Shown one piece after another: positions 8,551 to 62,390 of a stretch of 64,000 nucleotides of DNA. This DNA comes from Castor canadensis (taxonomy: Eukaryota > Chordata > Mammalia > Rodentia > Castoridae), in assembly GCF_047511655.1 (NCBI RefSeq), contig NC_133399.1, positions 4,095,333-4,159,332 on the forward strand. Direction: 5' to 3'. The stretch's first letter is position 1. Every line of letters starts with the position of its first letter. Made by a program: the position numbers and the translations under genes. The notes beneath the pieces are model-generated. The model was not told the origin of the DNA, ran no database searches, and worked only from the letters and a program-made list of their open reading frames with translations.

Positions 8551-9400
8551 TCCTTCACAGATATGATAGATGATTTTCTCAAGAGAAATTTTGACTAAAA
8601 GAGATGTGCAAAGGGAAATATGTTCATCTTTCCCACAAAGGGAAATGCACAATGGAATGAAATCTGTCATTGTACTTTGTGTGGTTTGACATACATCTTC
8701 AGTAAAGGCAGATAGATGACAGGTTTGACATCCATCAAGCAATACAGCAAGTCCAGGGAAGCCTGGACTAAATAGGAAGACCCTGTTTCAATGACTAACA
8801 CACAAAATCTTTTAAAAATAATTAAAAGTCCAGTGAAAATTACGCATGTAGTTGATTGCTATATACATAATATGAGCAAATTATAAATTCATGCAGAATA
8901 TTCCATAGAACACAACCAAGCTACAAATGTAATTTTTATCATTCTTAAATAGTATGCGTATCCTGAACATCAGCTTTCTGTTTATCATTCTGGTTCCTTC
9001 TTGTACATCCAGCTGGAGCCTGGGGTAGAAGGACTGCTAAAATATATAGTTGGACATTGGTAGCACCCTACTTCAAATAATAACAACTTGGATTAATTTG
9101 ACATAATTCTGTAAGATGTGTTTGAGTTTCATGGATATTGTCTTATTAAAAAAATATGTAACATGTCAGGAATCTACATGTCATCCTTGTGCATGGCCAT
9201 GTTAATTGTCTGTTCCATTCCATCTTCAGTATAGGTGCTGCTTAAGTGAACATCATACTGACTGTTATAATCATATCAGTTGATAAGGTGTTTTTACTTT
9301 GATTTATATGTGTGTTCATTTATCAATGAATTAAAATAGGTTTTTCAAAAATGTCCTGTAGGCTTTAATTTTATGCAACATTTGAGAGTTTGTCCTAATA
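8551..9400. other. Unassigned DNA with SINE scrap
   Basis: Positions 8740-8800 contain a B1-like scrap (aagcctggactaaataggaag, gaccctgtttcaa). The rest is AT-rich without an ORF of note. Confidence 0.45.
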
Positions 9401-14447: not shown

Positions 14448-15690
14448 TCAATTAGGGACATGTTTAAGTCTGTTCTTGAGGGGGTCCTGATTAGCCTCAG
14501 GTCTGATGACTGTCCAACACTGATCAGAGTTCACTGTGAAGGCTCTCTTAAGCTGAGTATGATGAATCCATGGGCGTTTTCCAGCTACCTTGACAGCCAT
14601 GGGAGTGGACAGGATCACAGTGTAGGGAGCTTGCCAGCAGGGCTCAAGGCTGTCAGGGTGATGTCTTTTTACCCACACTAGGTCTCCTGGCTCATAAGGA
14701 GTCCCAAGGGGGCCATCAGGTGTTGCCATTCCTTGGGCTTGCTGGACAGCTGAATGAATTTGTTTGAGAGTGTGTTGAAGAGCCTGAAGGGACTGAAGAA
14801 GATCATAATTAGAAATTTTAGTCAGGGTTTCCTCCCCCAACCTGGGGATTATGGGAGGTGATCGCCCATAGAGGACCTCAAATGGAGTGAAGCCCTGTCT
14901 ATAAGGGGTACATTTAACTCTTAATAGGGCTGCAGGAAGGAGGTTCACCCAGCCATTGCCTGTTTCCAAGGAGAGCTTAGTAAGCTCTTTTAGAGTCCAG
15001 TTCATCCTCTCTACCTGTCCTGAACTCTGGGGCCTATAAACACAGTGTAATTTCCATTTGATGTGTAGTGTTTTGGCTATTAATTTAGATATTTTAGCTG
15101 GGAAAGCTGGGCCATTGTCGGACCCCAGTATTAAAGGGAGGCCAAGTCGAGGAACTATTTCTTGTAGGAATTTCTTTACAGTAATCTGAGTTGTTTCAGT
15201 TTTAGTGGGGAAAGCCTCAGTCTATCCAGAGAACATATCAATCATTACCAATAAATATTTATACCCATATAACCCTGGCTTGATGTCAGTGAAATCAATC
15301 TCCCATTGTTCTCCAGAGAAGGAACCTCGCATTCTTATTCCTGGCTCAACCAAGGGTGCTCCATTTTGGTTGACCTGTTGCCATATATTGCACCTTGTAG
15401 CGAAATTTCATGCCAGGTGTTCTAAATTCTGGATAAAGAACCATTTTCTTAAAAGTTCAGTTAATTTTGTGGGTCCTAAGTGAGTGGTGTCATGAATGTC
15501 CTTTACAAGCGTGTGTCCCAGAGACTGGGGTAGAAATACCCTTCCATCTGGCAATGTTTGCCATCCAGAGGGACTTGTTAGCTGGAGGGTCTCTCCTAAT
15601 TGTGAGTCCTGTTTTATATAATTTGGTAGTGAGGTCAGAGCTGGGGTGTGTGTCAGTAAGATCTCTAGAGACCCCACTGCTTTTGTGGTG
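14448..15690 (-). pseudogene. pol: ERV integrase, two stop codons
   Basis: The frame continues from RNase H. The N-terminal His pair of the zinc-binding domain is in HDTTHLGPTKL. The core keeps all three acidic positions: EIDFTD (about 15293), GSDNGPAF (about 15121) and GQVERMN (about 15010). The C-terminal part (15005-14448) includes YEPGDLVWVKRHHP and WIHHTQLKRA. Two in-frame stops break it: TGA at about 15410-15408 and TAG at about 15226, where a Trp codon is expected. Apart from these the frame is open to its natural stop, so this is the best-preserved part of the provirus. Confidence 0.88.
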
Positions 15691-16145
15691 ACTGTTCTTG
15701 CAGCTTGATCAGCTGCCCGGTTTCTCCTTGTTTCAGAGTGGTCCCCCTTTTGATGACCACGGCAGTGAATAATGGCCACCATTTTAGGAAGCCAGAGGGC
15801 CTCTAAGAGGGCTAAGGTTTCTGGGACATTTTTAATATGTTTACCCACAGAGGTAAGGAAGCCTCTCTCCCTGTATAGGGCTCCATGTACAGGGGCCGTT
15901 TCAAATGCATACTGGCTGTCTGTATATACATTGATAATTTTATCTCTCCCGTACCTTAGACCTTGGGTCAGGGCAATTAGTTCAGCCTTTTGGGCTGAGG
16001 TTCCATGTCCAAGTGCCTGGGCCCAAATGGTCCAGTTCAGGGTGACTACTGCTGCCCCTGCGTACCTTATTCCATTGGTCACAAAACTGGAGTCATCAGT
16101 GAACAGTACCTCATCTGGCTTATCCCAGGGGACATCAGTCAGGTT
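15691..16145 (-). pseudogene. pol: ERV RNase H domain (open, catalytic residues present)
   Basis: The open minus-strand frame starts near 16145 and runs into integrase. The four acidic residues of an RNase H fold are visible in order: TDDSS (about 16105), KAELIAL (about 15990), YTDSQYAF (about 15925) and NRAADQAA (about 15715). It is in the same frame as the YVDD part of RT and as integrase. It cannot be expressed in context because RT upstream is broken. Confidence 0.85.
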
Positions 16146-18203: not shown

Positions 18204-18213
18204 AGAACTTCTT
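18204..18213. repeat. LINE-1 target-site duplication, left
   Basis: AGAACTTCTT at 18204-18213 is repeated at 19387-19396. Joining the outer sequences across one copy gives continuous gag, so it marks the LINE-1 insertion boundaries. Confidence 0.8.
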
Positions 18214-19386
18214 TTTTTTTTCATTTTTCTTTTATTATTCATATGTGCATACAAGGCTTGGTTCATTTCTCCCCCCTGCCCCCACCCCCTCCCTTACCAC
18301 CCACTCCACCCCCTCCCACTCCCCCCCCCCAATACCCAGCAGAAACTATTTTGCCCTTATTTCTAATTTTGTTGTAGAGAGAGTATAAGCAATAATAGGA
18401 AGGAACAAGGGGTTTTGCTGGTTGAGATAAGGATAGCTATACAGGGCATTGACTCACATTGATTTCCTGTGCGTGGGTGTTACCTTCTAGGTTAATTCTT
18501 TTTGATCTAACCTTTTCTCTAGTTCCTGTTCCCCTTTTCCTATTGGCCTCAGTTGCTTTAAGGTATCTGCTTTAGTTTCTCTGCGTTAAGGGCAACAAAT
18601 GCTAGCTAGTTTTTTAGGTGTCTTACCTATCCTCACCCCTCCCTTGTGTGCTCTCGCTTTTATCATGTGCTCAAAGTCCAATCCCCTTGTTGTGTTTGCC
18701 CTTGATCTAATGTCCACACATGAGGGAGAACATACGATTTTTGGTCTTTTGAGCCAGGCTAACCTCACTCAGAATGATGTTCTCCAATTCCATCCATTTA
18801 CCAGTGAATGATAACATTTCGTTCTTCTTCATGGCTGCATAAAATTCCATTGTGTATAGATACCACATTTTCTTAATCCATTCGTCAGTGCTGGGGCATC
18901 TTGGCTGTTTCCATAACTTGGCTATTGTGAATAGTGCCGCAATAAACATGGATGTGCAGGTGCCTCTGGAGTAACAGTCTTTTGGGTATATCCCCAAGAG
19001 TGGTATTGCTGGATCAAATGGTAGATCGATGTCCAGCTTTTTAAGTAGCCTCCAAATTTTTTTCCAGAGTGGTTGTACTAGTCTACATTCCCACCAACAG
19101 TGTAAGAGGGTTCCTTTTTCCCCGCATCCTCGCCAACACCTGTTGTTGGTGGTGTTGCTGATGATGGCTATTCTAACAGGGGTGAGGTGGAATCTTAGTG
19201 TGGTTTTAATTTGCATTTCCTTTATTGCTAGAGATGGTGAGATGTGTTTTCTGGCCATTTGAATTTCTTCTTTTGAGAAAGTTCTGTTTAGTTCACATGC
19301 CCATTTCTTTATTGGTTCATTAGTTTTGGGAGAATTTAGTTTTTTAAGTTCCCTGTATATTCTGGTTATCAGTCCTTTGTCTGATG
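18214..19386 (-). mobile_element. 5'-truncated young LINE-1 inside ERV gag
   Basis: Minus-strand LINE-1 3' end: ORF2 C-terminus, 3' UTR with a C-rich run on the plus strand (18270-18330, the complement of the G-rich polypurine tract), and a poly(A) tail seen as a T-run at 18211-18222. The ORF2 tail (from about 19386 to 18707) is nearly the same as the intact element at 46-50 kb; I see only a few residue changes (Thr for Ala in SFTGKW, Met for Ile in SLMCGH) and a small in-frame deletion in ARKHISPS. Truncation is at [10 protein letters not shown] of ORF2. Confidence 0.92.
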
Positions 19387-29009: not shown

Positions 29010-29890
29010 ACCTATTTGGCATTCAAACTCAGGGCCTCATGTTTATTGGGCATTCACTCCATTACTTGACTACTTTGCTAGGCCTCTTTTGCACTGGTGA
29101 TTTTTGAGATAGAACTTGATATGACTTTAAACCATGATCCTTAAGAAAATGTGGTATCTATACACAATGGAATTTTATGCAGCCATGAAGAAGAACGAAA
29201 TGTTATCATTCACTGGTAAATGGATGGAATTGGAGAACATTATTCTGAGTGAGGTTAGCCTGGCCCAAAAGACCAAAAATCGTATGTTCTCCCTCATATG
29301 TGGACATTAGATCAAGGGCAAACACAACAAGGGGATTGGACTATGAGCACATGATAAAAGCGAGAGCACACAAGGGAGGGGTGAGGATAGGTAAGACACC
29401 TAAAAAACTAGCTAGCATTTGTTGCCCTTAACGCAGAGAAACTAAAGCAGATACCTTAAAGCAACTGAGGCCAATAGGAAAAGGGGAACAGGTACTAGAG
29501 AAAAGGTTAGATCAAAAAGAATTAACCTAGAAGGTAACACCCACGCACAGGAAATCAATGTGAGTCAATGCCCTGTATAGCTATCCTTATCTCAACCAGC
29601 AAAACCCCTTGTTCCTTCCTATTATTGCTTATACTCTCTCTACAACAAAATTAGAAATAAGGGCAAAATAGTTTCTGCTGGGTATTGAGGGGGGGGAGTG
29701 GGAGGGGGGGAGTGGGTGGTAAGGGAGGGGGTGGGGGCAGGGGGGAGAAATGAACCAAGCCTTGTATGCATATATGAATAATAAAAGAAAAATGAAAAAA
29801 AAAAGAAATGTAAATCCAAAAAAAAAAAAAAAAAAAACCATGATCCTACTGATTTCTGCCTCCTGACAAGCTAGAATTAAGGGCATGAAA
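29010..29890 (-). repeat. Composite SINE split by a LINE-1
   Basis: The left piece (29010-29141) has tcaaactcagggcctcatgt, ccattacttgactactttgc and gatagaacttgatatgactt. The right piece (29848-29890) has actgatttctgcctcctgac and agctagaattaagggcatga. Together they form one composite SINE in reverse orientation, into which the LINE-1 at 29142-29834 inserted. Confidence 0.75.
29142..29834 (+). mobile_element. Short 5'-truncated young LINE-1
   Basis: Starts within the last codons of ORF2 (tgtggtatctatacacaatg) and contains ORF2 end, the 3' UTR, a G-rich tract (29690-29755), AATAAA near 29780 and poly(A). It is flanked by a 13-base duplication AAACCATGATCCT at 29129-29141 and 29835-29847. It is nearly identical to the 3' end of the intact copy. 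A short non-L1 piece GAAATGTAAATCC (29805-29817) lies between two A-runs in the tail. Confidence 0.93.
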
Positions 29891-42694: not shown

Positions 42695-43629
42695 GAGTTT
42701 CTCTGCTGCCTTTGTAATATTCGCCCTTCTATATCAGGTTGTGAGTGACACTCATTAGCCCAGTGATGGCCACGTTTGAAACAAGGACATATTCCTGGGG
42801 GGGGGGGTTGTCCTTGTCCAAAGGATCCAGCAGGTGGCGCATTTGCCTTTATGACATTCTTTAGCAAAATGACTTTTTTTTACAATTAGAACAGACACCT
42901 CCTTTTGAAGGGCGTAAGGGTTCCTTCAGAATGGCTGCTAATGCCATTCCCTGAGTGTAGCCTTCGTCTATATCTGAACAAAGCTGAATCATGTCTTGTA
43001 AGGAAGCCATTTTTCTATAAGGTCTGAGAGCTTCCTTACAATGTTTGTTAGCATTTTCAAAGGCTATTTGTTTTACAAGGAGAGTACCCAGTTCAGGTTC
43101 CCCAACAGTTCTACACATATGATGTAATAGGCAAGCCACAAAGTCTTGAAAAGTCTCCTCAGGAACTTGATGTAGTTTAGTAATTTCTTGGGTCTTATCT
43201 CCTTTAGTGGGAAGCTCTTTCCACGCTCTGGTGGCAGTGATACCCCTTTGGTCATATGTTAGCGGGGGATAATTTAATTGACTTTGCAAGCCTGTATGGT
43301 CCCCTTGACCTAGGAACATATCTGCAGTGATTGGTATTCCATGATTAACACTGCAGGTGGCTTGTTCTTTACCTATTTCATTTTAGCTAGTTTTCCATAA
43401 TAAATAATGTCCAGGTCTAAGACAAGCTTTAGCAACAGCCATCCAATCATCAGGAGGGAAGCAGAGCCAGCAGCAATGCTGTTCAACAGTTGCTGTGTAA
43501 ATGGAGCTGTAGCCCTGTACATAGTACAATCTTCCTTGAGTTCTTTTAAAGTTTTAAATGGAGTGGGTTCATAATGCCTCTGAGGCTCCCCTGCAGCTGG
43601 ATCAGTTTGTTCAAAAACTGGGTATATAT
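42673..43629 (-). pseudogene. gag: Beta-like gag, capsid C-terminal part and nucleocapsid
   Basis: The frame 43319-42861 carries capsid text: TRAWKELPTKGDKTQEITKL then FVACLLHHM and LVKQIAFENANKHCKEALRP. A first knuckle begins CSNCKKKSFC but is cut by a shift. The second, CPCFKRGHHWANEC at about 42790-42750, has Phe in place of the second Cys. The earlier capsid text lies at 43629-43320 in broken frames and continues beyond the LINE-1 at 50721. Confidence 0.8.
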
Positions 43630-43638
43630 TAAAACCAG
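43630..43638. repeat. LINE-1 target-site duplication, left
   Basis: TAAAACCAG at 43630-43638 recurs at 50712-50720. The site reads TT/AAAA, which is the LINE-1 endonuclease preference. Confidence 0.85.
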
Positions 43639-45100
43639 GGAGATTCCAAGATGGCGGCTAGAGGTAGGAAGCAGAAAGCGAGCCTCCTATAGTGAAATCT
43701 TGGAGAGACGCTGGAGACACACATTGCAGGCATAATCACCGAGAAAAGGCATAACTTTGACCCCTCCACATCTCCAGCCGGCGCAGAGAATCTCCACTTC
43801 ACGTTAAACGGAGAACCGAGGAGGCCCCCGGGCCGCCAGTGGCCGGCGCCCATACGGCTTGGGAAGACGCGGACCAGGTGAGCTTCGCGGTACCGCGGTT
43901 CCCCCACAGACAAGCCTGGGCCAGAGCAGCATAGCCCCCTGGACAGACTGACCTCCACCCGGGAAAAAAAAGAGAAACTGAGTACTAAGCAATAAGAACA
44001 GTTAAGACACGCTGGAAAGAGGGTGGGGCGCCCTGAGCGCTGAAGATTGGGGGAAGGGAATCCTTCCCGGGACTGTAAATAAACGAGCCGGGCGGGCCGG
44101 AGAGGCTCTGGCGGGAGCGGGGCGCGCCAGCAACCAGGAGCGGGGACGCTTGTGAGAGGAGGGAAGACCCACTTCCCACGTGAACTGTAAATAAACACGC
44201 AGGCCTGACAACGCGGGGCAGTGTCGCCTTTCCCAGTGCTTGGAAAGGGAAAAGCCTGTAGCAGAGGCCCCCCTCCCCCGCACAGGAGAACTCTGAGCAA
44301 ACAAAGCCTGTGGGACCAGGTGAGTGCTAAGCTCACCCCAGAGATCTGCATAAATAACGCCGCCAGCTACAGGCTGAGAGCAGCAGGCAGGCAAGCCACA
44401 GTTGCAGACACCACTCTCAGAACTGCCTCCAGACGCTTTTTTTTCTTTTTCTCCCTACCTTTGATGAGAGAACAACCGAATTACACCTGCAAGCCGAAAA
44501 ACTTACTGAAACTATTGCATTTGAACTGGGGACACTTGGTGGGGCTTTTTTTTTATTTTTTCTTCTGTGTGTGTGTGAGTGTAGTTTTGTTCTACTTTAT
44601 GCATCCCCTTTGATGAGACAACTACAGAACAACATCTGAGGCACCAACTCCAGGACTGGAGATTGAGACGGACATCCAAATTATTAAGACTGAAATTGCA
44701 TTGCATATAAACTTGGAAGTTTTTTGGTTTTTTTTTTTTTTTTAATTTCCTATTTTCCATTTTATTTTAATTCATTTTTATAAATAGATATTACTTTCAT
44801 ATACTTATTTTTTATTTTTTTTATCTTTGATTTTCAATCCTCTCTCTGTCTCTCTATTGTCTGTTCAGCTTACTGTGGATTAGTACACTAACACTCCCTG
44901 TTTATACCTTTGAAACTCTCTTGTCTGATACCTTGTTCTGCTTTCTCCCTCTTGTCTGTATATTTGTTTTCCCCTTTTCTTTAACTTCTTGCTTTCCATC
45001 TCAGCTCACTCTTCCGTTCTCAATATTACCATTGTTATTATTACAAGCTAGAAAATACTTAATTACACACAGTACAGGGACAGTAACAACACCAAGGACA
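43639..45100 (+). promoter_or_regulatory. LINE-1 5' UTR / internal promoter
   Basis: The sense promoter region starts with a YY1-type site CAAGATGGCGG (43647-43657) near the first base, as in primate L1. The first 700 bases are CpG- and GC-rich, consistent with an internal RNA polymerase II promoter that is usually methylated. Two related sections are seen at 44460-44545 and 44605-44720 (tttgatgaga...gcatttgaactggg / tttgatgaga...gcattgcatataaactt), suggesting an internal duplication. T-rich runs follow at 44715-44830. Confidence 0.8.
43647..43657 (+). promoter_or_regulatory. YY1-like site at the L1 5' end
   Basis: CAAGATGGCGG at nine bases from the L1 start. In human L1 the same motif sets accurate transcription initiation. 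The minus-strand L1 at 60.4 kb has the eroded form (CCAAGATGGTGG). Confidence 0.8.
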
Positions 45101-46303
45101 ATGACAGGAAGACAGAAAAAACAAGGAAACCAGTTTCCCCACAGCAAAAAATTAGTACAGGAACCAGAGGGGAATGAAGAGAACAGAAACTCAGAGCCAG
45201 ACTCGAACAAAATGAAGATAAACTATGCCAAAGGACCCAATGAAGCCTACAAGAATAATTTAAAAGAAGACATACTACAAGTACTCAATGAGAATTTTAT
45301 AGAGATGATACTGGATAGGGTCAACCAAAATGTACAGGAGACACTCAAGAAATTCCAAGACAATAAAAATAGAGAATTTGAAAAAGCAAAAGAAGAAATA
45401 AAGGAAACCATAGAAGCACTGTATAAACACCAAAGTGAAAGAGAGAACACAATGAATAAATGGATAAATGAACTCAGGACAAAAATAGACAACAATAAAG
45501 AAGAAAACAGCCAGGATATGGAAAACCTCAGAAAAAAGAACGAAACAGAACTGCAAAACAAAACGGAAAGCCAATCCAGCAGAATAGAACAAACAGAAGA
45601 CAGAATCTCAGAACTTGAAGATGAAATGGTAATTAAAGGAAAAACCGAAGAACTATTAATTAAACAACTCAAGACCTGTGAAAAGAAAATGCAAGAACTC
45701 ACCGACTCCATCAAAAGACCAAACTTGAGAATCATGGGCATCGAAGAAGGAGAAGAGGTGCAAGCGAAGGGAATGCGTAATATATTCAACAAAATAATAA
45801 CGGAAAATTTCCCAAATCTAGAGAAAGATATTCCCATACAAATGCAAGAGGCCTCCAGGACACCAAACAGACCAGATCAAAATAGAACTACTCCACGACA
45901 TATCATCATTAAAACAACAAGTTCAGAAACTAAGGAAAGAATATTGAAGGCTGCAAGAGAGAAAAAACAAGTAACATACAAAGGTAAACCCATCAAAATC
46001 ACAGCAGACTTCTCAACAGAAACATTAAAAGCAAGAAGAGCGTGGGGTGAGATCTTCCGGGCACTGAATGAAAATAACTTCAACCCCAGGATACTCTACC
46101 CAGCAAAGTTATCATTCAAAATAGATGGAGCAATAAAAGTCTTCCATGATAAGCAGAAACTAAAACAATATGTGACCACAAAGCCACCATTACAAAAGAT
46201 TCTGCAAGGGATCCTGCACACAGAAAGTGACACCCAACTTAACCATGAAAAGGCAGGCAGCACCAAACCACAGGATAAGAAAAAGCAAGACAGTAGAGAG
46301 TAA
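45101..46303 (+). CDS. LINE-1 ORF1 protein (RNA-binding chaperone)
   Basis: I choose the ATG at 45101 (MTGRQKKQGNQF), giving 400 codons; the frame is open further upstream to 44921 but that part is hydrophobic and unlike ORF1p. ORF1p trimerises and packages L1 RNA with ORF2p in cytoplasmic particles. A long Glu/Lys-rich coiled coil lies at about residues 45-200, then an RRM-like domain (RPNLRIMGIEEGEE at about 205) and a basic C-terminal domain (REKKQVTYKGKPIKI, then ARRAWGEIFRALNENNFNPR at about 310-330). It is a little longer than human or mouse ORF1p (about 340-370). It is intact. Confidence 0.93.
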   Translation: MTGRQKKQGNQFPHSKKLVQEPEGNEENRNSEPDSNKMKINYAKGPNEAYKNNLKEDILQVLNENFIEMILDRVNQNVQETLKKFQDNKNREFEKAKEEIKETIEALYKHQSERENTMNKWINELRTKIDNNKEENSQDMENLRKKNETELQNKTESQSSRIEQTEDRISELEDEMVIKGKTEELLIKQLKTCEKKMQELTDSIKRPNLRIMGIEEGEEVQAKGMRNIFNKIITENFPNLEKDIPIQMQEASRTPNRPDQNRTTPRHIIIKTTSSETKERILKAAREKKQVTYKGKPIKITADFSTETLKARRAWGEIFRALNENNFNPRILYPAKLSFKIDGAIKVFHDKQKLKQYVTTKPPLQKILQGILHTESDTQLNHEKAGSTKPQDKKKQDSRE

Positions 46304-46353
46304 CATCAAGTTAGGTACACACAATCAAACCTTCAAACAACTAAGATAACTAA
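46304..46353 (+). other. LINE-1 inter-ORF spacer
   Basis: Fifty bases between the ORF1 stop and the ORF2 start, with stops (TAA at 46301 and 46336). ORF2 is thought to be translated by reinitiation across this spacer. Confidence 0.75.
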
Positions 46354-49300
46354 ATGGCAGGAATCACCACATACCTATCAGTACTAACACTTAATGTCAA
46401 TGGACTTAATTCACCCATCAAAAGACACCGTTTGACAAAATGGATTAAAAAAGAAGATCCAACAATTTGTTGCTTACAGGAGACTCATCTCACCGACAGA
46501 AATAAGCATATGCTTAGGATGAAAGGCTGGAAGAAGATTTACCAAGCTAATGGCCCCCGAAAACAAGCAGGAGTAGCAATACTTATCTCTGACAAAGTAG
46601 ACTTCAAACCTACATTGATCAAACGAGACAAAGAAGGACATTCCATACTAATAAAAGGGGAAATAGACCAAAAGGAAATAATAATCATCAATCTGTACGC
46701 ACCCAATGTCAACGCACCCAATTTCATCAAACATACCCTAAAAGACCTAAAAGCATATATAAACGCCAACACAGTGGTTGTGGGAGACTTTAACACTCCA
46801 TTATCATCAATAGATAGGTCATCCAAACAAAAACTCAATAAAGAAATCCAAGATCTAAAATATGCAATAGATCAAGTGGACCTAGTAGATGTCTACAGAA
46901 CATTTCATCCAACCTCTACACAATATACATTCTTCTCAGCAGCCCATGGAACCTTCTCCAAAATAGATCATATCCTAGGGCACAAAGCAAGCCTCAGCAA
47001 ATATAAGAAAATAGAAATAATACCGTGCATACTATCTGACCACAATGCAGTAAAAGTAGAACTCAACAACAAAAGTAAAGACAAAAAACATGCAAACAGC
47101 TGGAAACTAAATAACTCATTACTTAATGAAGAATGGATCATCGATGCAATAAAAGAGGAAATTAAAAAGTTCCTAGAAGTCAATGAAAATGAAAACACAA
47201 CCTACCGGAACCTATGGGACACAGCTAAGGCAGTCTTGAGAGGAAAGTTTATAGCCATGAGTGCATATATTAAAAAGATTGAAAGATCCCAAATCAATGA
47301 CCTAATGATACATCTCAAACTCCTAGAAAAACAAGAACAAGCAAATCCCAAAACAAATAGAAGGAGAGAAATAATAAAAATAAGAGCTGAAATCAACGAA
47401 ATAGAAACCAAAAAAACCATACAAAGAATTAATGAAACAAAAAGTTGGTTCTTTGAAAAAATAAACAAGATTGATAGACCCCTGGCAAACCTGACTAAAA
47501 TGAGGAGAGAAAAAACCCAAATTAGTAGAATCAGGAATGCAAAAGGGGAGATAACAACAAACACCATGGAAGTCCAGGAAATCATCAGAGACTACTTTGA
47601 GAACCTATATTCAAATAAATTTGAAAATCTAAAAGAAATGGACAGATTTCTAGATACATATGATCATCCAAAACTGAACCAAGAGGAAATTAATCACCTG
47701 AATAGACCTATAACACAAAATGAAATTGAAGCAGCAATCAAGAGTCTCCCCAAAAAGAAAAGTCCAGGACCTGACGGATTCTCTGCTGAATTCTATCAGA
47801 CCTTTAAAGAAGAACTGATACCAACCCTCCTTAAACTGTTCCATGAAATAGAAAGGGAAGGAAAACTGCCAAACACATTTTATGAAGCCACTATTACACT
47901 TATCCCAAAACCAGGCAAAGACACCTCCAAAAAGGAGAACTATAGGCCAATCTCCTTAATGAACATTGATGCAAAAATCCTCAACAAAATAATGGCAAAC
48001 CGAATTCAGCAACACATCAAAAAGATTATCCACCACGACCAGGTAGGCTTCATCCCAGGGATGCAGGGGTGGTTCAACATACGAAAATCAATAAACATAA
48101 TAAACCACATTAACATAAGCAAAGACAAAAACCACTTGATCATCTCAATAGACGCAGAAAAAGCCTTTGATAAGATCCAACATCATTTCATGATAAAAGC
48201 TCTAAGAAAACTAGGAATAGAAGGAAAGTTCCTCAACATTATAAAAGCTATATATGACAAACCTACAGCCAGCATTATACTTAACGGAGAAAAATTAAAA
48301 CCGTTCCCTCTAAAATCAGGAACCAGACAAGGATGCCCACTATCTCCACTCCTATTCAACATAGTACTGGAATTCCTAGCCAGAGCAATTAGGCAAGAAG
48401 AAGGAATAAAAGGAATACAAATAGGTAAAGAAACTGTCAAAATATCCCTATTTGCAGACGACATGATCCTATACCTTAAAGACCCAAAAAACTCTACTCA
48501 GAAGCTTCTAGACATCATCAATAGCTATAGCAAAGTAGCAGGATATAAAATCAACATAGAAAAATCATTAGCATTTCTATACACTAACAATGAGCAAACG
48601 GAAAAAGAATGTATGAAAACAATTCCATTTACAATAGCCTCAAAAAAAATCAAATACCTAGGTGTAAACCTAACAAAAGATGTGAAAGACCTCTACAAGG
48701 AAAACTATACACTTCTGAAGAAAGAGATTGAGGAAGACTATAGAAAGTGGAGAGATCTCCCATGCTCATGGATTGGTAGAATCAACATAGTAAAAATGTC
48801 GATACTCCCCAAAGTAATCTACATGTTTAATGCAATTCCCATCAAAATTCCAATGACATTCATTAAAGAGATTGAAAAATCTACTGTGAAATTTATATGG
48901 AAACACAAGAGGCCACGAATAGCCAAGGCAATACTCAGTCAAAAGAACAATGCAGGAGGTATCACAATACCTGACTTCAAACTATATTACAAAGCAATAA
49001 CAATAAAAACAGCATGGTACTGGCACAAAAACAGACATGAAGACCAGTGGAACAGAATAGAGGATCCAGATATGAAGCCACACAACTATGAGCAACTTAT
49101 CTTTGACAAAGGAGCTAAAAATATACGATGGAGAAATAGCAGCCTCTTCAACAAAAACTGCTGGGAAAACTGGTTAGCAGTCTGCAAAAAACTGAAACTA
49201 GATCCATGTATATCACCCTATACCAAGATTAACTCAAAATGGATCAAGGATCTTAATATCAGACCCCAAACTCTTAAGTTGATACAAGAAAGAGTAGGAA

Positions 49301-50172
49301 ATACTCTGGAGTTAGTAGGTATAGGTAAGAACTTTCTCAATGAAACCCCAGCAGCACAGCAACTAAGAGATAGCATAGATAAATGGGACCTCATAAAACT
49401 AAAAAGCTTCTGTTCATCAAAAGAAATGGTCTCTAAACTGAAGAGAACACCCACAGAGTGGGAGAAAATATTTGCCAATTATACATCAGACAAAGGACTG
49501 ATAACCAGAATATACAGGGAACTTAAAAAACTAAATTCTCCCAAAACTAATGAACCAATAAAGAAATGGGCATGTGAACTAAACAGAACTTTCTCAAAAG
49601 AAGAAATTCAAATGGCCAGAAAACACATGAAAAAATGCTCACCATCTCTAGCAATAAAGGAAATGCAAATTAAAACCACACTAAGATTCCACCTCACCCC
49701 TGTTAGAATAGCCATCATCAGCAACACCACCAACAACAGGTGTTGGCGAGGATGTGGGGAAAAAGGAACCCTTTTACACTGTTGGTGGGAATGTAGACTA
49801 GTACAACCACTCTGGAAAAAAATTTGGAGGCTACTTAAAAAGCTGGACATTGATCTACCATTTGATCCAGCAATACCACTCTTGGGGATATACCCAAAAG
49901 ACTGTTACTCCAGAGGCACCTGCACATCCATGTTTATTGCGGCACTATTCACAATAGCCAAGTTATGGAAACAGCCAAGATGTCCCAGCACTGACGAATG
50001 GATTAAGAAAATGTGGTATCTATACACAATGGAATTTTATGCAGCCATGAAGAAGAACGAAATGTTATCATTCGCTGGTAAATGGATGGAATTGGAGAAC
50101 ATCATTCTGAGTGAGGTTAGCCTGGCTCAAAAGACCAAAAATCGTATGTTCTCCCTCATATGTGGACATTAG
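46354..50172 (+). CDS. LINE-1 ORF2 protein (endonuclease and reverse transcriptase)
   Basis: 1272 codons uninterrupted, the usual length. N-terminal APE-type endonuclease: Asn14 (LTLNVNGLN), Glu43 (LQETHLT), Asp145 (VGDFNTPLS), and Ser228-Asp229-His230 (SDHNAV) are all present. Reverse transcriptase: [30 protein letters not shown], and the catalytic FADD at residues 700-703. The C-terminal Cys/His motif is [18 protein letters not shown] at about 1130. It nicks target DNA and reverse transcribes L1 RNA there (target-primed reverse transcription). Start ATG in MAGITTYLS. No stop or indel is seen. The LINE-1 promoter drives it; host repression is expected. Confidence 0.96.
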
Positions 50173-50650
50173 ATCAAGGGCAAACACAACAAGGGGATTG
50201 GACTATGAGCACATGATAAAAGCGAGAGCACACAAGGGAGGGGTGAGGATAGGTAAGACACCTAAAAAACTAGCTAGCATTTGTTGCCCTTAACGCAGAG
50301 AAACTAAAGCAGATACCTTAAAGCAACTGAGGCCAATAGGAAAAGGGGACCAGGAACTAGAGAAAAGGTTAGATCAAAAAGAATTAACCTAGAAGGTAAC
50401 ACCCACACACAGGAAATCAATGTGAGTCAATGCCCTGTATAGCTATCCTTATCTCAACCAGCAAAACCCCTTGTTCCTTCCTATTATTGCTTATACTCTC
50501 TCTACAACAAAATTAGAGATAAGGGCAAAATAGTTTCTGCTGGGTATTGAGGGGGGAGCGGGAGGGGGTGGAGTGGGTGGTAAGGGAGGGGGTGGGGGCA
50601 GGGGGGAGAAATGAACCAAGCCTTGTATGCACATATGAATAATAAAAGAA
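50173..50650 (+). other. LINE-1 3' UTR with G-rich tract
   Basis: Non-coding, with a purine-rich run at 50551-50610 (GGGGGGAG, GGAGGGGGTGGAG, GGGAGGGGGTGGGGGCAGGG) that could form a G-quadruplex, as known for L1 3' UTRs. AATAAA is at 50641-50646, followed by the tail. The 29.1 kb and 18.2 kb copies keep the G-rich tract with small length differences. Confidence 0.85.
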
Positions 50651-50711
50651 AAATGAAAAAAAAAAATAAAAGGAGAGACTTCCCCTACAAAAAAAAAATA
50701 AAATAAAAAAA
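50651..50711 (+). repeat. LINE-1 A-rich tail with interposed sequence
   Basis: Two A-rich runs are separated by GGAGAGACTTCCCCTAC (50672-50688). This piece is not part of the L1 3' UTR seen in the other copies, so it may be a short 3' transduction. Confidence 0.75.
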
Positions 50712-50720
50712 TAAAACCAG

Positions 50721-56237: not shown

Positions 56238-57853
56238 GAGGATTTTTGCATCAATGTTCATTAAGGAGATTGGCCTATAGTTCTCCTTTTTTGGAGGTGT
56301 CTTTGCCTCCAAATAAATGTAATACTGGCTTTACAAAATGAGTTAGGCAGTTTCCCCTCTCTTTCTATTTTGTGGAACAGTTTAAGGAGGGTTGGTATCA
56401 GTTCTTCTTTAAAGGTCTGATAGAATTCAGCAGAGAATCCATCAGGTGCTGATGGATTCTTTTTGGGGAGACTCGTGATTGCTGCTTCAATTTCATTTTG
56501 TGTTATAGATATAGTTAAGTGATTAATGTCCTCTTGGTTCAGTTTTGGATGATCATATATATCTAGAAATCTGTCCATTTCTTTAAGATTTTCAAATTTA
56601 TTTGAATATAGGTTCTCGAAGTAGTCTCTGATGATTTCCAGGACTTCTGTGGTGTTTGTTGTTATCTCCCCTTTTGCATTCCTTATTCTACTAATTTGGG
56701 TTTTTTTCTCTCCTCATTTTAGTCAGGTTTGCCAGGGGTCTGTCCATCTTGTTTATTTTTCAAAGAACCAACTTTTTGTTTCATTGATTCTTTGTATGGT
56801 TTTTTTGGTTTCTATTTCATTGATTTCAGCTCTTATTTTTCTTATTTCTCTCCTATTTGTTTTGGGATTTTCTTCTTCTTTTTCTAGGAGTTTGAGATGT
56901 ATCATTAGGTCATTGATTTGGGATCTTTCAGTCTTTTTAATATATGCACTCATGGCTATAAACTTTCCTCTCAGGACTGCCTTTGCTGTGTCCCATAGGT
57001 TCCGGTACATTGTGTTTTCATTTTCATTGATTTCCAGGAACTTTTTAATTTCCTCTTTTATTTTATCAATGACCCATTGTTCATTAAGCAATGAGTTATT
57101 CAGTTTCCAGCTGTTTGCATGTTCTTTGTCTTTACTTTTGTTGTTGAGTTCTAGTTTTATTGCATTGTGGTCAGATAGAATGCATGGTATAATTTCTATT
57201 TTCTTATATTTGCTGAGGCTTGCTTTGTGCCCTAGGATATGATCTATTTTGGCGAAGGCTCCATGGGCTGAGAAGAATGTATATTGTGTAGAAGTTGGAT
57301 GAAATGTTCTGTAGACATAAAATAGGTCCATTGGATCTATTGTATATTTTAGATCCAAAATTTTTTTATTGATTTTTTGTTTGGATGACCTATCTATTGA
57401 TGATAATGGGGTGTTAAATTGTCTCCACAACCACTGTGTTGGAGTTAATATATGCTTTTAGGTCCTTCAGGGTACGTTTGATGAAATTGGATGTGTTGAC
57501 GTTGGCTGAATATAGGTTGATAATTTTTATTTCCTTTTGGTCTATTTCACCTTTTATTTGTATGGAATGTCCTTCTTTATCTCATTGGATCAATGTAGGT
57601 TTGAAGTCTACTTGTCAGTAATAAGTATTGCTACTCCTGCCTGTTTTGGGAGGCCATTGGCTTGGTAATTCTTTTTCCAGCCTTTCATCCTAAGGCTATG
57701 GTTATTTCTATCAGTGAGACAGATCTCCTGTAAGCAACAAATTGTTGGATCTTCCTTTTTAATCCATTTTGTCAAACAGTGCCTTTTGATGGGGGAATTA
57801 AGTCCGTTAACATTAAGCGTTAGTACTGATAGGTATGTGGTGATTCCTGTCAT
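56238..57853 (-). pseudogene. LINE-1 ORF2, 5' half, disrupted copy
   Basis: 57853-57608 encodes the endonuclease start with Asn14 and Glu at LQEICLT. 57430-56753 continues through [12 protein letters not shown] and [12 protein letters not shown]. 56578-56261 reaches [20 protein letters not shown]. Frameshifts separate the three pieces. Confidence 0.85.
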
Positions 57854-57906
57854 TTAGTTGTCTTAGTTGTTTGAAAGTTTGATTGTGTATACCTAAGTTG
57901 AGGTTA

Positions 57907-59119
57907 CTATCTACTTTCTTGCTTTTTCTTTTCCTGGAGTTTGGTGCTGCCTGCCCTTTCATGGTTATGTTGGGTTTCACTTTCTGCGTGCAGAATCCCT
58001 TGAAGAATCTTTTGTAGTGGTGGCTTTGTGGTCACATATTGTTTTAGTTTCTGCTTATCATGGAAGACTTTTATTGCTCCATCTATTTTCAATGATAGTT
58101 TTGCTGGGTAAAGTATCCTGGGGTTGAAGTTATTTTCATCCAGTGCCCGGAAGATCTCACCCCAAGCTCTTCTTGCTTTTAATGTTTCTGTTGAGAAGTC
58201 TGCTGTGATTTTGATGGGTTTACCTTTGTATGTTATTTGTTTTTTCTCTCTTACAGCCTTCAATATTCTTTCTCTAGTTTCTGTATTTGTTGTTTTAATG
58301 ATAATATGCTGTGGGGTAGTTCTATTTTGGTCTGGTCTTTTTGGAGTTCTGGAGTCCTCTTGCATCTCTATGGGAATAGATTTCTCTAGATTTGGGAAAT
58401 TTTCTGTTATTATTTTGTTGAATATATTATGCATTCCCTTTGCTTGTACCTCTTGTCCTTCTTCAATGCCCATGATTCTCAGGTTTGGTCTTTTGATGGA
58501 GTCTGTGATTTCTTGCATTTTCTTTTCACAGGTCTTAGTTGTTTAACTAATAGTTCTTCCATTTTTCCTTTAATTACCATTTCATCTTTGAGGTCTGAGA
58601 TTCTGTCTTCTGTTTCTTCTATTCTGCTGGATTGGCCTTCCATTTTGTTTTGCAATTCTGTTTCATTCTTTTTTCTGAGGTTTTCCATATCCTGAGTCCC
58701 TTCCTCTTTAATGTTGTCTATTTTTGCCCTGAGTTCATATATCTCCTTATTAATTGTGTTCTTTGTTTCACTTTGGTGTTTACACAGTGCTTCTATGGTT
58801 TCTTTTATTTCTTCTTGTGCTTTTTCAAATTCTCTTTTTTTGTTGTCTTTGAATTTCTTGAGTGTCTCCTGTACATTTTGGTTGACCATATCCAGTATCA
58901 TCTCTATAAAATTCTCATTGACTACCTGTAGTATTTCTTCTTTTTGATTTTTCTTGTGGGCTTCATTGGGTTCTTTGGCATAGTTTATCTTCATTTTTTG
59001 GAGTCTGGATCTGAGTATCTGTTTTCTTCATTTCCCTCTGGTTCCTGTAGTAATTTTTTGCTGTGGGGAAACTGGTTTCCCTGTTTTTTCTGTCTTCCTG
59101 TCATTGCCCTTGGTGTTGT
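57907..59119 (-). pseudogene. LINE-1 ORF1, disrupted copy
   Basis: Pieces: MTGRQKKQGNQFPHSKKLLQ to 58991 then a stop; the coiled-coil part at 58994-58479; and the RRM and C-terminal part at 58518-57907 (RPNLRIMGIEEGQE, ARRAWGEIFRALDENNF). At least two frameshifts relative to the intact copy at 45101. Confidence 0.85.
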
Positions 59120-59353
59120 TATTGTCCCTGTACTGTGTACAATTAAGTATTTTCTAGCTTGTAATAATAACAATGGTGATATTTAGAATGGAAGGGTGAG
59201 AGGACATGGAAAGCAAAGAAGTTAAAGAAAAAGGGAAAAACAAACAAGTAGGAAAAAAACAAAACAAACAAAAAAGTTTCAAAGATATACACAGGGAGAG
59301 ATAGTGTACTAATCAATAGTAAGCTGAACAGGCATTAGACAGACAGAGAGATG

Positions 59354-59361
59354 ATTGAAAA

Positions 59362-59404
<43 letters not shown>
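59354..59404. repeat. (AAAT)n microsatellite
   Basis: About eleven tandem AAAT units inside the 5' UTR of the minus-strand LINE-1. The equivalent place in the intact copy (44765-44830) is T/A-rich without this expansion. Confidence 0.9.
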
Positions 59405-60402
59405 AAATCTCCAGTTCAAATGCAATAAACTTTCAGTCTTAATTATTTTGTTTTTGGTCCCTCAGCCTCCAATCCTGGAGATGGTTTCTCAGAAATAGTT
59501 CTGTCATTGTGTTACCAAAGGGTAAAAAAACTAAAAAAAAAACAAAAAACAAGAAACAAAAAAAACACCACAAAGTGTCCCAAGTTCAAATGCAATACAG
59601 TTTCAGTAAGTTTTTTACCATGCAGGTGTAGTTCAGTTATTGTCTTATCAAAGGAAGAGAGAAACAAATAAGAGTCTGGAGACAGTCCTGTGAATGACTA
59701 TCTGAGGCTGTGGCTCACCTGCTCGCTGCAGTTAGCTTGCTGTTTCTGGAGGCTTTATTTATGCAGATCTCAAGAGTGTACTTAACACTCAGCTAGCCCC
59801 TCAGACTTTGTTTACTTAGCGTTCTCCTGGGCGCAGCTGCCACTGCTACAAGCTTTTTCAGGCTGGCATGTTTATTTACAGCTCATGTAGGAAGGGGGTC
59901 TTCTCCCCTATCCTGTGGAGTTTTCCTCCCACCACCACTTTAACAAGCTTTCCCACTCCTGTTTGCTGGGTGTGTGCCATCATTCCTGCTTTCTCTGGCC
60001 AGCACCCTCTTTGCTATGTGTCTTTTTTGTTATTGCTTATTATTCAGGTGTTTTTTTCTTTTTTCCCTGGGTGGGGGTCAGTCTGACCAGGGGGCTATGC
60101 TGATCTGGCCTAGGGTTGTCTGTGGGAGTATCGTGTGCTGCTTAGCTCTCCTTGTGGTCTGCATCTTCCCAAGCCATCTGGGTGCTGCTGTCTGGCAGCG
60201 GCACGGGAGTCCTCCTGTTTTCTCCATTTAATGTGAAGTGGAGATGCTATGCACAGGCTGGAGGTGTGGAGGAGTCAAAGTTTTGCCTCTTCTCGGTGGT
60301 TTTTCCTTTAAGATGTATCTCCAGTGTCTCTCCAAGATTTTACTTTAGGAGGCATGCTTTCTGCTTCCTCCCTCTAACCACCATCTTGGAATCCCCTCCC
60401 TA

Positions 60403-62390
60403 TTGTTTTCTAGAGTGGTTATAGAACTTGCATTCCCACCAACAGTGTATGAAGTTTCATTTTTCTACACATAATCACCAGCACCTGTTGTTGGTGGTGT
60501 TTTTGATGATAGCTATTCTAACAGTGATGAGGTGAAATCTTTAGTGTGGTTTTGATTTGCATTTCCTTTATGGCCAGAGATGGTGAGCATTTTTTCATGA
60601 GGTTTGGATTTCTTATTTTGGAAAAGTTCTGTTTAGTTCAGTGGCCCATTTCTTTATGATTTAATGATTTTTGAGGAGTTTAGTTTTTTGAGCTCCCTGT
60701 ATATTCTGGTTATCAGTCCTGTGATGTATAGCTAGCAAATATTTTCTCCCACTCTGGGTGGTCCCTTCCATTTAGAGACCATTTCTTTGGTTGTGCAGAA
60801 CTTTTTAATTTCATGTAGTCCCCTTTGTCCATTCATTCTCTTAGTTGCTGAGCTGGTGTGGTTCTACTGAAGCAGTCCTTGCCTGTACCTAATGCTTCCA
60901 GAGTAGTCCCTGCTCTTTCCTGTACTAACTTAAGAGTTTCACATCTGATACTAAGATCATTGATCCATCTTGAGTTGATACTACTACACGGTGATAAACA
61001 TGGATCTATTATCAGTTTTCTGCAGGCAGGTAACCTCTTCTCACAGCAACATTTCTTAAAGAGGCTGCCTATTTTCCATCATATGTTTTTAGTGACTTTG
61101 TCAAAAATTAGGTGGGCATACCTGTGTGGATTCATATCCAGGTCCTCTCTTTAATTCCACTGGTCTTCATATCTGGTTTTGTTCCAGAATGATGGTGTTT
61201 TTATTGCTATTGCTTCATAATATAATTTGAAGTCAGATATTGTGATTCTGCCAGCATTGCTGTTTTTGCCAAGTACTGCTTTGGCTATTCACAGTATCTT
61301 TTGTTTCCAAATGAATTTTAGGGTAGATTTTTCAATCTCTGTGATGAATATCATTGGGATTTTAATGGGAATTGCATTGAACATGTAGATTGCTTTTGAT
61401 GGTGTGGCCATTTCTACTTTGTTGATTCTATCAATCCATGATCACGGAAGATCCTTCCACCTTCTGTTGTCTTCCTTAATCTCTTTCTGCAGAAGCTTGT
61501 AGTTCTCCTTGTAGAGGTCATTCACATCCTTTGTTAAGTTTACTCCTAGGTATTTAATTTTTTTAAGGCTATTGTACATGGAGTTGTTTTCATATATTAT
61601 TTCCCAATTAACTCATTGTTGGTGTATAGAAAAGTTAATAATTTTTTTAAGTTGATTTTCTATCCTGCCACCTTGCTGAAGCTGTTTATACTGTCTAGGA
61701 GTTTTGGGGTAGAGTGTTTTGGGTCTTTGAAGTATAGGATTATGTCGTCTGCAAATAGGACTATTTTGAACAGTTTCTTTACCTATTTGTATTCCTTTTA
61801 TTTCTTCTTCTTGCCTTATTGCTCTGGTTAGGAATTCAGTACCATGTTGAATAGGAGTGGGGATAGTGGGCATCCTTGTCTCATTCCTGATTTTAGGAAA
61901 AGTGATTTCAGTTTTTCTCCATTAAGTATGATGTTGACTATAGGTTTGTCTTCTATAGCCTTTATACTGTTGAGTTACATTCCTTCTATCCCTAGTTTTC
62001 TTAGAACTTTTATTACAAAGTGGTGTTGAATCTTATCAAATGCTTTTTCTGCATCTATTGAGATGATCAAGTAGTTTTTGTCTTTGCTTCTATTCATGTG
62101 CTGTATTATATTTATAAATTTGTGTATATTGAACCACTCCTGCATTCCCTGGGATGAAGTCAACTTGGTCATTTTGAATGATCTTCTGATATGTTGTTGG
62201 ATTTGGTTTGCCATTATTTTATTGAGGAATTTTGCATTGATGTGCATTAAGGAGATTGGTAAGTATCCTCTTGTTTTAATATTGGATGGTTATAAGTATT
62301 TTGAAATTTTTCCATTTCTTCAAGATTTTCAAATTTATTTGAACATAGGTTCTTAAAGTACACTCTGATGATTCCCTGGATTTCTGTCAT
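60403..62390 (-). mobile_element. Older LINE-1 ORF2 fragment
   Basis: Starts on the left inside the ORF2 C-terminal region (about residue 1150, catgg-type text cattcccaccaacagtgta) and runs back to about residue 410 at 62390. An internal loss near 62255 joins about residue 533 to about residue 435. More diverged than the neighbour (longest frame about 90 codons: [20 protein letters not shown]). No 5' or 3' end and no target duplication seen. Confidence 0.85.

Follow-up and report, generated by a model that had tools for sequence, protein, structure and literature searches.

A full-length LINE-1 (L1) in the beaver Castor canadensis is, in our assessment with high confidence, an intact and recently active source element, from which at least four relatives elsewhere in the genome (L038, L040, L041 and L042), perhaps six, appear to descend. 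The element lies at 43639-50712 on the plus strand of the window, the whole 64,000-nt stretch of DNA that was analysed (G000:C14:4095333-4159332 of the 2.81-Gb genome), to which plain positions refer. The main evidence comes from a two-step tail with a 22-nt tag, of which the preliminary description of this DNA made no mention. That description had put the element forward as a source-gene candidate, and a genome-wide search bore this out by retrieving relatives that carry the element's own target-site letters before their A-tails.

Structure of the element

Both reading frames are uninterrupted, as the preliminary description had claimed, with ORF1 (400 aa) at 45101-46303 and ORF2 (1272 aa) at 46354-50172. 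The catalytic residues that it listed, Asn14, Glu43, Asp145, Asp229 and His230 of the endonuclease and F700-A-D-D703, were likewise all read as claimed. ORF1p contains L1 RBD-like and dsRBD-like domains (Pfam PF02994, 6e-28; PF17490, 1.7e-23) and matches the solved structure of human ORF1p (2YKO, 1.5e-62), while ORF2p matches PF03372 and PF00078, comprises an endonuclease, a reverse transcriptase and a CCHC motif from residue 1130, and aligns with human ORF2p over residues 1-1271 (2027 bits). By these domains of both proteins the element is an L1 non-LTR retrotransposon.

The 5′UTR (43639-45100, 1.46 kb) displays no obvious tandem array in a repeat scan. Near its 5′ end, the motif AAGATGGC was found at 43648-43655, where a YY1-type site had been noted; we likewise take it to be of this type. 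The CpG observed/expected ratio is 0.58 in the 5′UTR and 0.64 in its first 802 nt, compared with 0.09 for the rest of the window, and this retention of CpG (0.58 versus 0.09) is a mark of youth.

Downstream of ORF2, the 3′UTR (50173-50655, with AATAAA at 50641) is followed by a first A-run (50656-50666), presumably the tail of the progenitor, the 22-nt 3′ transduction TAAAAGGAGAGACTTCCCCTAC (50667-50688) and a second A-rich tail (50689-50712). One AATAAA at 50665 spans the junction of the first A-run with the tag, and three more start at 50697, 50702 and 50710 in the second tail. The 8-nt target-site duplication AAAACCAG flanks the element at 43631-43638, where it is preceded by TT, and at 50713-50720. 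The TT/AAAA endonuclease site, the duplication and the A-tail are marks of target-primed reverse transcription; site and duplication had been proposed before and are backed by empty copies of the host, an old endogenous retrovirus (ERV), the nearest of which (L045) reads TTAAAACCAGAAG at the site of the 5′ duplication. A Gag p24 fragment of this ERV lies at 42861-43319 on the minus strand. Other old ERV remains in the window are gammaretrovirus-like Gag p30, RNase H and integrase fragments (1850-2341 and 14448-16082, minus strand), and a U6 snRNA match, gene or pseudogene, is found at 9150-9251 on the minus strand (54.1 bits).

Two further L1 copies in the window had been called almost identical to the 3′ end of the element. 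The match itself is real, but the wording overstated it, as the copies at 18212-19386 (minus strand) and 29141-29804 (plus strand) are 98.1 and 98.2% identical, respectively; the 22-nt tag is absent from both. At 29795-29850 (plus strand), a truncated copy, the third in the window, has two A-runs separated by a few letters other than A, which may be one more very small 3′ transduction. The minus strand at 56238-62384 contains older L1 pieces with 79-87% identity to the element.

Copies with an open ORF1 elsewhere in the genome

A 49-nt pattern from the 5′ end of the element, allowing up to 3 mismatches, was found at 2,742 places genome-wide (1,344 + 1,398), and its reversed control at none. 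By hand count, 72 of the matches listed, window included, are exact. These places are not all full L1s: L025, which contains a presumably ID-like SINE, is cut short, and L033 (region of C5:158447947) is devoid of most of its 5′UTR. The gap in L033 runs exactly from GT to AG (window equivalent 43878-45072, plus strand), as might be left by the re-integration of a spliced L1 RNA, and is similar to human SpIREs as portrayed in the parts of PMC5860796 used here. The 21-mer at its junction has 13 exact matches and 37 within 2 mismatches genome-wide (reversed control, 5), L033 being the one of the 37 whose surroundings were read. Four other L1 5′ ends, L009-L012, lie within 0.26 Mb (C1:106.79-107.06 Mb) on one strand at near-equal distance from the window copy, which suggests a duplicated segment.

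Open frames do not set this copy apart in its genome, because the best 104 of 86,931 candidates in an ORF1 search, all 104 of them, are open across 400 residues, and the top score is reached at 29 of these loci, among them the window. A neutral calculation, assuming indels at one tenth of substitutions, gives a copy that is 0.1% changed a chance of about 47% of keeping both frames, so intactness alone is not surprising. PMC10239488, as far as excerpted here, reports intact LINE ORFs in all the rodent genomes that it analysed save H. glaber. The open loci also bear on the concern that the frames are open merely through an error of assembly. One assembly is the whole basis of our reading, but the 29 loci at the top ORF1 score, the 104 open loci and three relatives with both ORFs open (L038, L040 and L041) make such an artefact exceedingly improbable.

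The 5′UTR also contains an antisense open frame of 240 aa (43629-44351, minus strand). Primate L1s possess ORF0, an antisense gene of the L1 5′UTR, and the frame would be its analogue if it were a real gene. Its length is reached in 2 of 1000 dinucleotide shuffles, and of 2719 candidate proteins from a large database, 1553 match at E ≤ 0.001, in some cases across 98-99% of the frame. Yet among 23 close copies, those differing by no more than 1.5% in the 5′ part, L031 alone keeps the full-length ATG frame, while the other 22 have antisense ATG frames whose maximum length is 44-203 aa; the frame has no Pfam match, and the 120 database matches listed are all unnamed JGI hypothetical proteins. With the frame kept in 1 of 23 copies and no Pfam match, we rejected an ORF0-type gene, which we consider very unlikely. 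The JGI proteins would be what gene callers make from host DNA; with its many matches among hypothetical proteins of metagenomes, the antisense frame probably gives rise to spurious gene predictions.

Tagged relatives and the native target site

When the genome was searched for GGAGAGACTTCCCCTACAAAA (the 17-nt tag core followed by AAAA) with up to 1 mismatch, seven places were found, all exact and all L1 3′ ends; the reversed control gave no match. The six tagged L1s besides the window copy share 98.5-99.9% identity with it in an initial comparison over 468-1,504 nt, and on visual reading they have A-tails and flanking duplications of their own. Three of them (L039, L042 and L043) are truncated. 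The other three (L038, L040 and L041) are full length with both ORFs open, L038 carrying H230N in its endonuclease, and in longer sequences they are 99.4-99.6% identical to the element; substantial divergence from all other copies, named beforehand as an observation that would tell against a source, is not what we see.

The tails of these relatives differ beyond the tag. L038, L040 and L041 read ATAAAACCAG and then an A-run, such that the full AAAACCAG with its letters CCAG stands before the poly(A). L042 reads ATAAAACCA and then an A-run, and so has the target-site letters in part (AAAACCA, that is, CCA). In L039 and L043, tag and T-bearing second tail are present, and ATAAAA runs straight into A with no CCAG. 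At the window copy, the same letters run on into CCAGAAGTGTCG, which is host DNA.

To which locus CCAG is native can be read from the host ERV family. The right flank of the element matches 41 places genome-wide, with 100% identity at the window itself and no more than 94% elsewhere, and the junctions at 20 of the 41 (the window and 19 others) were examined. All 19 others also have the left flank and are hence ERV copies, not offspring with a longer 3′ transduction reaching into the ERV, a candidate that we discarded. In L045, the closest L1-free copy (left flank 99%, right flank 94%), the site reads TATATATTAAAACCAGAAGTGTCG, and AAAACCAG stands at the insertion point in 6 of the 19 fetched copies; in the remainder, one A is missing (L051 and L056), the last letters are changed (L048, L057-L060 and L063) or the site is rearranged or diverged (L047, L052, L053, L055 and L061). 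CCAG is therefore native to this locus, and since it is part of the target site, copies with CCAG before their A-tail derive most simply from this locus or its alleles. Apparent offspring carrying a short piece of its flank, together with two open ORFs that keep their catalytic residues, are the features of a source element, and the window copy very probably acted as one.

Parent or sibling

The parentage mark is short, four letters past the A-rich run, with a chance of 1 in 256. All seven tagged copies might instead stem from an unseen master, the CCAG of which matches the target site by accident, making the window copy a sibling. L039 and L043, with tag and T-bearing second tail but no CCAG, would allow an unseen common ancestor that had this tail; the tail could equally have originated in the window copy, L039 and L043 being cleaved just ahead of CCAG. 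A sibling further requires a four-letter coincidence with DNA that, according to the empty ERV copies, is native here, in addition to the shared 44409C: this position is C in the window, L040 and L041, and T in L038 and in 20 of 20 other close copies. The comparison copies derive from 30 loci, the first of the 72 exact 5′-pattern rows (contigs C1-C6), of which nine were dropped because they had diverged or could not be aligned, and L037 because it and L041 are one locus; they include the near-duplicates L009-L012 and, having been chosen by their exact 5′ pattern, are uninformative on 43640-43688. On the reading of the window copy as source, 44409C would be a change in the source that was passed to later but not earlier offspring.

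Private substitutions favour the sibling to some degree. A parent and its offspring should have equal private counts, barring additions to the offspring through copying errors, gene conversion or alleles. Counted across its full length, the window copy has 6, L038 16, L040 13 and L041 19, and the low number in the window (P 0.05 versus L038, 0.17 versus L040 and 0.015 versus L041) is unlike that expected of a parent; outside the 5′UTR the counts are 4, 3, 6 and 13, respectively. Because the whole-element counts are the more uneven, we slightly lowered our confidence in the source and slightly raised that in the sibling, which we still judge unlikely. In L038, 13 of the 16 private substitutions fall in the 5′UTR, which points to gene conversion or some other local process. 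Five sites (43665, 43682, 43840, 44325 and 44405) split the four copies into conflicting pairs, and 50407 (A in the window, L038 and L041, G in L040) is at odds with 44409; a repeated change at 50407 is plausible, since G there would create a CpG. L040 and L041 have in common 44405T and, at 44436, five additional T, so one may derive from the other, or both from a shared intermediate. The uneven counts and conflicting sites could reflect source alleles, gene conversion, copying errors or a chain of descent, and which relatives are offspring and which grand-offspring we can only infer. Under assumed rates of 1-5e-9 per year, the 3-13 private substitutions counted in 5,565 nt would put the copies at very roughly 0.1-2.3 million years.

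As to the present, the element may be a former source that inactivating or silencing changes have immobilized since it seeded its copies, with the frames still open, a state that overlaps with our preferred reading and that we regard as a serious possibility, if not the favoured one. Its private changes include one amino-acid change, Ile582 in the window and Val in L038, L040 and L041; this change is conservative, and all catalytic residues checked are kept.

A presumed progenitor site

Searched without its trailing A, the tag occurs at eight places, the eighth being C11:19144271 (L069), where no L1 match was detected within the 1.5 kb fetched on each side. L069 reads TTTTTTTTAAAAGGAGAGACTTCCCCTACAACCC, of which 24 nt are identical to the window. 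With 1 mismatch allowed, the reversed control of the tag without its trailing A was matched 3 times, but chance would yield an exact 24-mer 2e-5 times. A T-run that leads into AAAA is typical of L1 target sites. Probably, an L1 that once resided at C11, and that the sequenced haplotype lacks, transduced the tag into the lineage of the window copy; we infer that the end of such a progenitor would read AAAAGGAGAG.

Proposed origin of the short tags

Open ORFs, tags, empty sites and relatives with their own duplications and A-tails are observed directly. Behind them, we envisage that an internal promoter would drive a transcript running past the L1 end, that the polyadenylation signals of the tail would stop it a few bases into host DNA, and that ORF1p and ORF2p would insert copies of it elsewhere through target-primed reverse transcription. 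The AATAAA at 50665 lies 23 nt upstream of the end of the first tag (50688), and those at 50697, 50702 and 50710 lie 23, 18 and 10 nt upstream of the end of CCAG (50720). This spacing agrees with the 10-30 nt past the signal at which transductions often end (PMC13009371, in the parts considered here), but says little on its own because a TAAA-rich A-tail would often hold AATAAA anyway. Tentatively, we suggest that the tail might act as a ratchet: an A-tail joined to a T-AAAA target, or single T changes in the tail, would build a new AATAAA, so that the RNA of each generation would tend to end just past the previous tail and gain a very short tag from its own target. Although we consider this doubtful, if it were true, tags of 4-25 nt, which are easily missed, could make whole L1 pedigrees readable from one assembly, missing progenitors included.

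Discussion

A source L1 with its offspring is ordinary LINE-1 biology, yet here it is traceable unusually well from sequence alone. The sections of PMC6425141 drawn on here describe a human L1 transduction family with a chr11 lineage progenitor and a chr3 donor, whose members are likewise linked by 3′ transductions, with a daughter traced to its donor; we also count as a likeness the polymorphic donor, which the reference genome lacks, and the two alleles of the progenitor. In contrast, the beaver tags measure just 22 and 4-8 nt, and the presumed progenitor site is seen empty in the present assembly. In mouse, according to the portions of PMC10620060 at hand, donor and daughter pairs were similarly traced by 3′ transductions in an L1 family rich in intact copies, of which there are about 2800, whereas the mouse 5′UTRs are monomer arrays and the 1.46-kb 5′UTR described here has no obvious array. 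Short tags between two A-tails, often ending 10-30 nt past the signal, are shared with the colorectal cancer transductions covered in our extracts of PMC13009371; those are mainly somatic human insertions, whereas ours are copies in one assembly.

For the beaver, the analysis raises the element from a candidate to a probable source gene, documented by sequence, in a genome where related L1 5′ ends number in the thousands. Exact loci can now be named for the presumed progenitor (C11:19144271) and for this insertion (C14:4138970), in a likely three-generation pedigree of an empty progenitor site, this element and at least four offspring.
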